Source: Candidatus Woesearchaeota archaeon
GTDB lineage: Archaea > Nanobdellota > Nanobdellia > Woesearchaeales > GW2011-AR4
NCBI GenBank assembly: GCA_016180235.1
Contig: JACPBQ010000003.1
Location: 62,001 to 126,000 of the forward strand
Reading direction: 5' to 3'
DNA length: 64,000 bases
Shown piece after piece: positions 15,221 to 55,342 of the stretch. Under the pieces are notes generated by a model. It made no database searches. It was not told where the DNA came from and saw only the letters and a list, made by a program, of their open reading frames with translations. The position numbers were made by a program, and so were the translations under genes. The number at the start of each line of letters is the position of its first letter. Position 1 is the stretch's first letter.

Positions 15221-15404
15221 AAAATGTCGGAATTTTCCACTAGTTAATAACTAGTGGCAGAAAAGCCAAATACATTGCGAAAATTCCGAGCATGCTCAAA
15301 AACCACTCAATGTTTATATACATAACCCAATCATTCCACCCATCTGTGATGGTTTGAACTTGTTCAAACCTACAAACGCTAGTGAGTATGGGTGGTTTTT
15401 GACA
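15221..15404 (+). repeat. structured repeat family, copy A
   Basis: Two helices in series. Stem I is TCGGAATTTTC (15227-15237) pairing with GAAAATTCCGA (15279-15289), enclosing the hairpin CCACTAGTT/AACTAGTGG (15237-15257). Then GCATGCTC and stem II, TCAAAAACCAC (15296-15306) with GTGGTTTTTGA (15392-15402). Inside stem II is a perfect hairpin GGTTTGAA-CTTG-TTCAAACC (15351-15370) and a TATA-like TTTATATA. It fills the gap between two convergent genes. Copies B and C share the same plan and the words ATGTC and CATGCTCAAAAAC. Confidence 0.85.
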
Positions 15405-29285: not shown

Positions 29286-29306
29286 GAAATTAAAAAAAAT
29301 AATAAA

Positions 29307-29513
29307 ATGTCAGAAATTTTCCACCAGTTTATAACTGGTGGCTGAAAGCCAATTTCCTTTAAGCATATGGAAAATTTCTGAACATGCTCAAAAACCACTG
29401 GAATAGTTTGCGATAAGCAACATCCTAAAAAATCTCTACGAGATTTTTGGGACACCAAAAACTCAAGGAATTTTTCAGTGTTCCACCAGTCTTTGACTGG
29501 TGGTTTTTGACAA
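29307..29513 (+). repeat. structured repeat family, copy B
   Basis: Stem I is TCAGAAATTTTCC (29310-29322) with GGAAAATTTCTGA (29369-29381), 13 bp perfect, enclosing hairpin CCACCAGTT/AACTGGTGG. Stem II is TCAAAAACCAC (29388-29398) with GTGGTTTTTGA (29500-29510). An alternative hairpin CCACCAGTC-TTT-GACTGGTGG (29483-29503) competes with stem II. Compared with copy A, G-C pairs have become A-T and T-A pairs C-G at matching helix positions. Located between convergent genes. Confidence 0.87.
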
Positions 29514-55013: not shown

Positions 55014-55123
55014 TTTATAAAATAATTTGGATTGTGGTATTTATAATTTTTCTTTTAATATTGGATATTGCCTTAAAAACGGAAATTATCATAAGGCAAG
55101 TTTTGCGGAATTTCATCTTTTTA

Positions 55124-55284
55124 CATGTCGGAAATCGCAAAGGCGTACACCATTTGCTTCAGCTTATGGAAAGCAGTGAGATGCGAGTGAGCTCGTGTTT
55201 TCTCACTCGCTCACAATTCACCGATTTCCGAGCATGCTCAAAAACTCCGCTACACGTTCCGCACTTTAGTGCGGAGTTTTTGAC
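55124..55284 (+). repeat. structured repeat family, copy C
   Basis: CATG plus stem I TCGGAAATCG (55124-55137) pairs with CGATTTCCGA and CATG (55222-55236). Stem II is TCAAAAACTCCGC (55238-55250) with GCGGAGTTTTTGA (55271-55283), 13 bp perfect; the hairpin TCCGCAC-TTTA-GTGCGGA (55258-55275) competes with it. The interior of stem I holds the palindrome shared with 23151-23191. Unlike A and B it lies between divergent genes, upstream of the thyA TATA box (CTATTTAAAA, 55296-55305). Confidence 0.87.
55176..55221. repeat. palindromic repeat, second copy
   Basis: GTGAGATGCGAGTGAGC (55176-55192) and CTCGCTCACAATTCAC (55206-55221); reverse-complement match to 23151-23191. Nested within copy C of the structured repeat. 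Confidence 0.7.
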
Positions 55285-55342
55285 AAAACCAAAACCTATT
55301 TAAAATTAAATCGTTTTATCCTCCATATCGGGTGGTCATATA

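Follow-up and report, generated by a model that had tools for sequence, protein, structure and literature searches.

The DNA analysed here, a window of 64,000 nucleotides from a Candidatus Woesearchaeota archaeon (contig JACPBQ010000003.1, positions 62,001 to 126,000), carries three copies of a family of short double-hairpin elements that is mobile and recently active. We lean, with restrained confidence, towards reading the family as non-autonomous mobile DNA elements of 50 to about 250 bp, running from TGTC to GACA, which would move as a folded single-stranded DNA double hairpin with the help of a single-strand transposase supplied in trans and a guide linked to an internal hairpin (HP1). 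The limits of the three copies come from direct reading of the letters and from a generic detector, and their parts are listed below (^ marks a junction or insertion point throughout).

15225-15404, + strand: double-hairpin element, copy A, 180 bp, TGTCGGAA...GACA (direct reading, detector)
15221-15224, + strand: left-flank target of copy A, AAAA (direct reading, target rule)
15233-15236, + strand: putative guide of copy A, TTTT, just 5' of HP1 (flank-guide association)
15237-15257, + strand: HP1 of copy A, internal 21-nt hairpin, CCACTAGTTAATAACTAGTGG (direct reading)
15288-15297, no strand assigned: junction core of copy A, GAGCATGCTC, made of the stem I 3' foot and the stem II 5' foot with bulged G and bulged C (core pattern, detector)
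29308-29512, + strand: double-hairpin element, copy B, 205 bp, TGTCAGAA...GACA (direct reading, detector)
29304-29307, + strand: left-flank target of copy B, AAAA (direct reading, target rule)
29317-29320, + strand: putative guide of copy B, TTTT (direct reading, flank-guide association)
29321-29341, + strand: HP1 of copy B, CCACCAGTTTATAACTGGTGG (direct reading)
29380-29389, no strand assigned: junction core of copy B, GAACATGCTC, bulged G replaced by A (core pattern, detector)
29420-29481, no strand assigned: second, unrelated double-hairpin unit in the stem II loop of copy B (direct reading)
29483-29503, + strand: HP2 of copy B, CCACCAGTCTTTGACTGGTGG, then TTTTTGACA (direct reading)
55126-55285, + strand: double-hairpin element, copy C, 160 bp, TGTCGGAAATCGC...GACA, lacking HP1 and HP2 (direct reading, detector)
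55123-55125, + strand: left-flank target of copy C, ACA (direct reading, target rule)
55230-55239, no strand assigned: junction core of copy C, GAGCATGCTC (core pattern, detector)

The exact architecture common to the three copies is TG-TC[stem I]GA-g-CA^TG-c-TC[stem II]GA-CA, in which a foot of two pairs, TG/CA, closes each hairpin, one G is bulged on the 3' side of stem I and one C on the 5' side of stem II, the junction reads GAGCATGCTC, and the reverse complement yields the same architecture again; copy B carries an A in place of the bulged G. The original prediction had described a two-stem structure shared by three places in the window, and this structure is present in all of them within the refined limits given above, although the TG/CA feet with one bulged base each (GAgCA^TGcTC) had escaped that description. 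A detector that specified this architecture only and left the stem sequences free returned exactly these three copies and no others in the window, against one match in 40 Markov-simulated windows and none in 1.46 Mb of shuffled sequence from the fetched loci. The unit nested in copy B has a junction of the GGNNCACC type and ends near CAT/AGTG, recurs at five other loci (L045, L015, L019, L068 and L359) and probably represents a sister family built on the same logic.

Further copies turned up both in the genome of origin and in related DPANN genomes, so that the earlier count of three holds for the window but not for the family as a whole. By counts that rest on pattern searches, the genome of origin has six intact copies, defined as exact cores with both arms (two on contig C5, three on C6 and one on C9), and one further degenerate core near C6:61778, while up to about 22 oriented copies occur in the genome of one relative. 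The core, with at most one mismatch, was found in 37 of 59 sampled relatives and a reversed control pattern in none; an exact longer pattern, searched in 371 genomes of the phylum, occurred in 26, all belonging to several families of the window's own order, and was absent from the other sampled orders of the class. Judged by the contig lists, the hosts are mainly Woesearchaeota with some Pacearchaeota. A first pass catalogued 122 elements, rising to about 147 distinct ones once a second, distant family was added; most are about 50-254 bp long, and nearly all of the variation among them lies within the two loops. Core matches in bacteria mostly look like chance matches to a 16-mer, and none of the seven in viral contigs is accompanied by stems.

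The fold is supported by covariation. In 93 unique elements whose left ends were picked by the flank motif and not by pairing, 89% of variable stem positions are paired in stem I and 94% in stem II, compared with 18-66% when the alignment is slid by one to three bases, and the eight column pairs with the highest corrected mutual information are, without exception, predicted pairs. The feet covary as well, at least 20 copies having CATC...GAGTGTGCTC in place of TGTC...GAGCATGCTC. The compensatory pairs named in the original prediction were correct, and its view of a structured repeat family with compensatory change is borne out by overwhelming base-pair covariation; its remark that the repeat matched no known RNA also agrees with a search of the window with the Rfam covariance models, in which no family reached its gathering score for the elements and the sole match was a tRNA. 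The nature of the folded molecule is a separate matter. Summed from the pairing table of the same 93 elements, mismatches in the stems comprise 26 G.T and 26 A.C (an apparent A.C excess in stem I came from a count that repeated related copies and was replaced by this unbiased one), and since the two kinds are equally common the pairing looks like that of DNA and not of RNA from one strand. The orientation of the elements is moreover uncoupled from that of the flanking genes (25 versus 21 in co-directional gaps), with convergent gaps containing few copies and the other two kinds, divergent and co-directional, most of them, and these two observations together make DNA the most likely folded molecule. 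Copying within the palindrome could be an added source of covariation, so that selection need not be the only one, and compensatory change within a repeat family need not signal a functional RNA.

Recent movement can be read from near-identical copies and from empty sites. For example, one relative (G025) carries 164-bp copies that are 95.7-99.4% identical, and another (G032) 112-bp copies that are 98.2-99.1% identical, in both cases at unrelated sites with flank identity at about the level of chance, and in both the identity between copies stops exactly at TGTC and GACA. In a gene of G031, a 57-bp copy lies in-frame and adds 19 residues between SITNN and ISDT (locus L208, which is one record with L090); those orthologues from relatives whose alignment spans the site have no such insertion. 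A host hairpin pair with the linker TCGTAATA^AGCAAATGACA is empty at L309 and filled at L288, one copy sits within the hairpin loop of another element (AGTC^TATGACT, L344), another is nested in the stem of an element (L042), and the flanks of the copy at L058 match an element-free repeat at L066. At none of these five empty or nested sites (L208, L309/L288, L344, L042 and L058/L066) is there a target duplication.

The surroundings of the copies provided several observations of their own. Another two-hairpin repeat (ACGGACAA...TTGTCCGT, the linker TCGTAATA, then a second hairpin) repeatedly hosts the element in its linker (L288, L299, L307, L308, L316 and L309), and several copies of a larger hairpin-rich repeat (GCCTCG...CGAGGC) carry the element at the same loop position (L058, L066, L086, L102 and L139). 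Insertions into hairpin loops look enriched, flanks able to pair over at least 8 bases accounting for 15.8% compared with 4.7% in shuffles (loci with such insertions are L269, L273, L285, L286, L289, L049 and L344). At L385, a direct duplication of 30 bases spans the left flank and the left end of the element.

The left flank of the elements is constrained, with the form TTNNANA^, whereas the right flank is nearly free: A occupies position -1 in 112 of 121 cases and position -3 in 113 of 121, and T occupies positions -5 and -6 in about three-quarters. Recent copies vary from -4 outwards, and empty sites already contain the target bases, which assigns the flank to the target and not to the element. 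Copies bearing HP1 are divided by the bases directly 5' of this hairpin, TATACC-like copies having the flank ATA in 22 of 24 cases and TTCC/TTTTCC copies the flank AAA in 25 of 27 (Fisher P = 2e-13), whereas in copies without HP1 the flanks ATA, AAA and ACA are mixed and minimal copies of the CATC type tend towards ATT^ with T at +1. Within the window, copies A and B combine TTTT 5' of HP1 with an AAAA flank, and copy C, which has no HP1, has an ACA flank. The association is what would be expected if the bases 5' of HP1 acted as a guide; it could also come from two subfamilies served by two enzymes. Minimal elements of 50-57 bp have neither HP1 nor HP2 and thus lie outside the guide model as stated. 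In IS608, insertion takes place 3' of a tetranucleotide that is kept in the left flank, the target is read by a guide located 5' of a hairpin of 20-25 nt, and single-stranded DNA is used at replication forks (PMC5934647, PMC6006769).

Orientation tends to be coherent along contigs: of 49 pairs of adjacent copies on one contig, 37 face the same way (P = 4.5e-4 by permutation), although the result is weak when G342 is left out (21 of 30 pairs, P = 0.043). On the 731-kb contig of G342, 17 of 18 copies fall into two same-strand blocks, nine at 7-383 kb pointing one way and eight at 420-642 kb the opposite way, with a single exception at 5 kb. A replication origin at the switch was considered and rejected: cdc6 lies elsewhere and the GC skew tracks gene strand.

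In the mechanism that we favour, the mobile form would be single-stranded DNA folded into two adjacent hairpins. These would be recognised by a single-strand transposase acting in trans, for which an HUH/Y1 enzyme resembling TnpA of IS200/IS605 is the simplest candidate. The enzyme would cut at the TG...CA ends and join the element to the 3' side of a short, AT-rich target, TTNNANA^, leaving no target duplication, and in copies bearing HP1 the bases directly 5' of this hairpin would serve as a guide pairing with the target trinucleotide. The target rule, the position of HP1, the missing duplication and the orientation pattern fit an IS608-type mechanism, including a possible link to replication forks. 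A more far-reaching version, which we put forward tentatively and hold to be the less probable, is that of an archaeal single-stranded DNA element reduced to two hairpins and dependent on an enzyme in trans, which may retarget itself by mutating the short guide next to a hairpin and may grow by insertion into the loops of other hairpin elements. If true, no REP-like system of single-strand transposition would have preceded this one in Archaea, and its record would be the natural covariation between guide and target.

The search for the enzyme bears on its class. Y1 genes occur in 27 of the 59 relatives, among them the three in which recent copies are clearest (G025, G032 and G342), whereas Y1_Tnp was not found in six high-copy genomes that are incomplete MAGs (G031, G034, G028, G021, G075 and G278). 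None of the Y1 genes examined is flanked by element ends, and the resident IS200-type elements have other hairpins and other ends. TnpB is rare in the host genomes and unlinked to the elements, and an IS200/IS605 parent was rejected after inspection of Y1 and TnpB loci, which have no ends in common with the elements. The homology to IS200/605 ends that the original prediction had raised as a counter-finding is absent in sequence, while the mode of working appears to resemble that of IS200/IS605; and since no Y1 locus examined has matching ends, we say of the family that it may work in the manner of an IS200/IS605 derivative, without classifying it there. An autonomous copy with a gene inside its loops was looked for within 6 kb of unpaired cores and not found, and the idea that the two inverted copies on contig C5 bound a composite transposon was discarded, since the genes between them are all ordinary ones. 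At L393 (G245, contig C112), a CATC-type element splits a Y1 transposase gene just past the HUH motif into two coding pieces. The presence pattern of tyrosine recombinases or of reverse transcriptases was not discriminating, and neither was retained as the linked enzyme.

The alternative that survives best, which we nevertheless hold to be unlikely, is that a tyrosine recombinase of the XerA or integron type acts on one folded strand, in the manner of IntI on attC, with a recombination site formed by the CA^TG junction and the two bulged bases, G and C. Xer-like genes are present in 17 of 20 host genomes checked, bulged bases and one-strand folding resemble attC, target duplication is lacking, there is a likeness between the target ANA^ and the right-hand terminus of the element itself, GACA^, and head-to-tail tandems with the junction GACA^TGTC have been observed (L057 and L387). 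On the other hand, such recombinases are equally present in element-free genomes (G013, G036 and G039), G001 with one copy gave no match and G278 with 11 copies a weak one, the copies do not stand in cassette arrays, and the model has no counterpart for the flank-guide association. A MITE that has short terminal inverted repeats (TGTCRRAAA/TTTYYGACA) and is mobilised as duplex DNA by a DDE transposase would account for ends that are imperfect inverted repeats, and TG...CA termini are common among DDE elements; we consider it rather improbable, as target duplication is absent at every empty site examined, the target preference is one-sided, the conserved bulges and folded interior are left unexplained, and no autonomous copy was found in the 6 kb around unpaired cores. 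Spread by an RNA intermediate and reverse transcription, as suggested for the double-hairpin elements of Allomyces mitochondria, would agree with two stable hairpins and, by the same argument as in Allomyces, with the lack of target duplication (PMC2800124), but is very improbable given that an RVT_1 reverse transcriptase is present in just 5 of 20 genomes, which include neither G025 nor G342, both with recent copies, that G.T and A.C mismatches are balanced, and that the elements have no orientation relative to genes. That host selection maintains a structured RNA or chromosomal site, so that covariation would reflect function and not transposition, as the original prediction had implied in taking selection on a folded molecule as its sole reading, would suit covariation as strong as that seen here, which extends to foot pairs changed from TG/CA to CA/TG, and the conserved bulges, but as the whole story it is already largely refuted by near-identical copies at new sites and presence/absence differences, by insertions inside a gene and inside other elements, by the lack of G.U bias on either strand and of any preferred position or orientation relative to genes, and by the ability of palindrome-internal copying to restore pairing as well.

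Searches of Rfam and of the literature found no description of this family, and we know of no kind of element with this GAGCATGCTC junction. The closest kinds are REP sequences with their RAYTs, fungal mitochondrial double-hairpin elements and Rickettsia palindromic elements. The last, which PMC3733652 cites, are palindromic units able to enter protein genes in-frame, a likeness to the in-frame insertion reported here, whereas their host domain and anatomy are different and the present family is mostly intergenic. Integron attC sites are imperfect palindromes with bulged bases, a variable interior and one-strand folding, features that recur here, but our copies are scattered and end in TGTC/GACA, and no core boxes or cassette arrays were seen. 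Likeness to IS200/IS605 extends, in copies bearing HP1, to hairpins of about 21 nt preceded by a sequence that matches the target in the left flank; it further extends to insertion 3' of a short AT-rich target with no duplication and a free right flank, and to an orientation that tends to be coherent by region; in contrast to those elements, the present ones have no linked tnpA or tnpB, differ from the resident IS200 elements in their ends, which fold into two complete adjacent hairpins with the fixed GAGCATGCTC junction, and lack internal hairpins in their minimal copies. REP and REPIN sequences are likewise small, mostly intergenic, multi-copy palindromes, often paired and sometimes inside genes, and are thought to be mobilised in trans by Y1 proteins (TnpA-REP, or RAYT) that go with GTAG- and CGTC-tagged palindromes (PMC3733652). 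Here, neither tag is present, the feet are TG/CA and rarely CA/TG, the double hairpin is head-to-tail with bulges, the host is archaeal, and no Y1 gene examined is flanked by the repeats; a 2018 survey listed only IS200-type Y1 proteins in Archaea (PMC6006769). The double-hairpin elements of Allomyces and Schizosaccharomyces mitochondria also consist of two adjacent hairpins and are mobile, mostly intergenic and without flanking duplication, whereas their setting is unrelated and the portions of the reports consulted mention no TG...CA feet, GAGCATGCTC junction or guide-target relation (PMC2800124, PMC10085805). This likeness is a structural analogy only and does not imply common descent. With this family, a mobile element of the REP-like or double-hairpin kind that was active recently is placed in the DPANN archaea, mostly uncultured organisms with small genomes; guide-target covariation among its natural copies would make target choice by base pairing testable beyond the few IS200/IS605 elements studied, and in-frame insertion is a way in which archaeal proteins can acquire new peptide segments. 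In our view the elements are best read as a family, new and archaeal, of non-autonomous, putatively guide-targeted single-stranded DNA elements, analogous to REP and double-hairpin elements.
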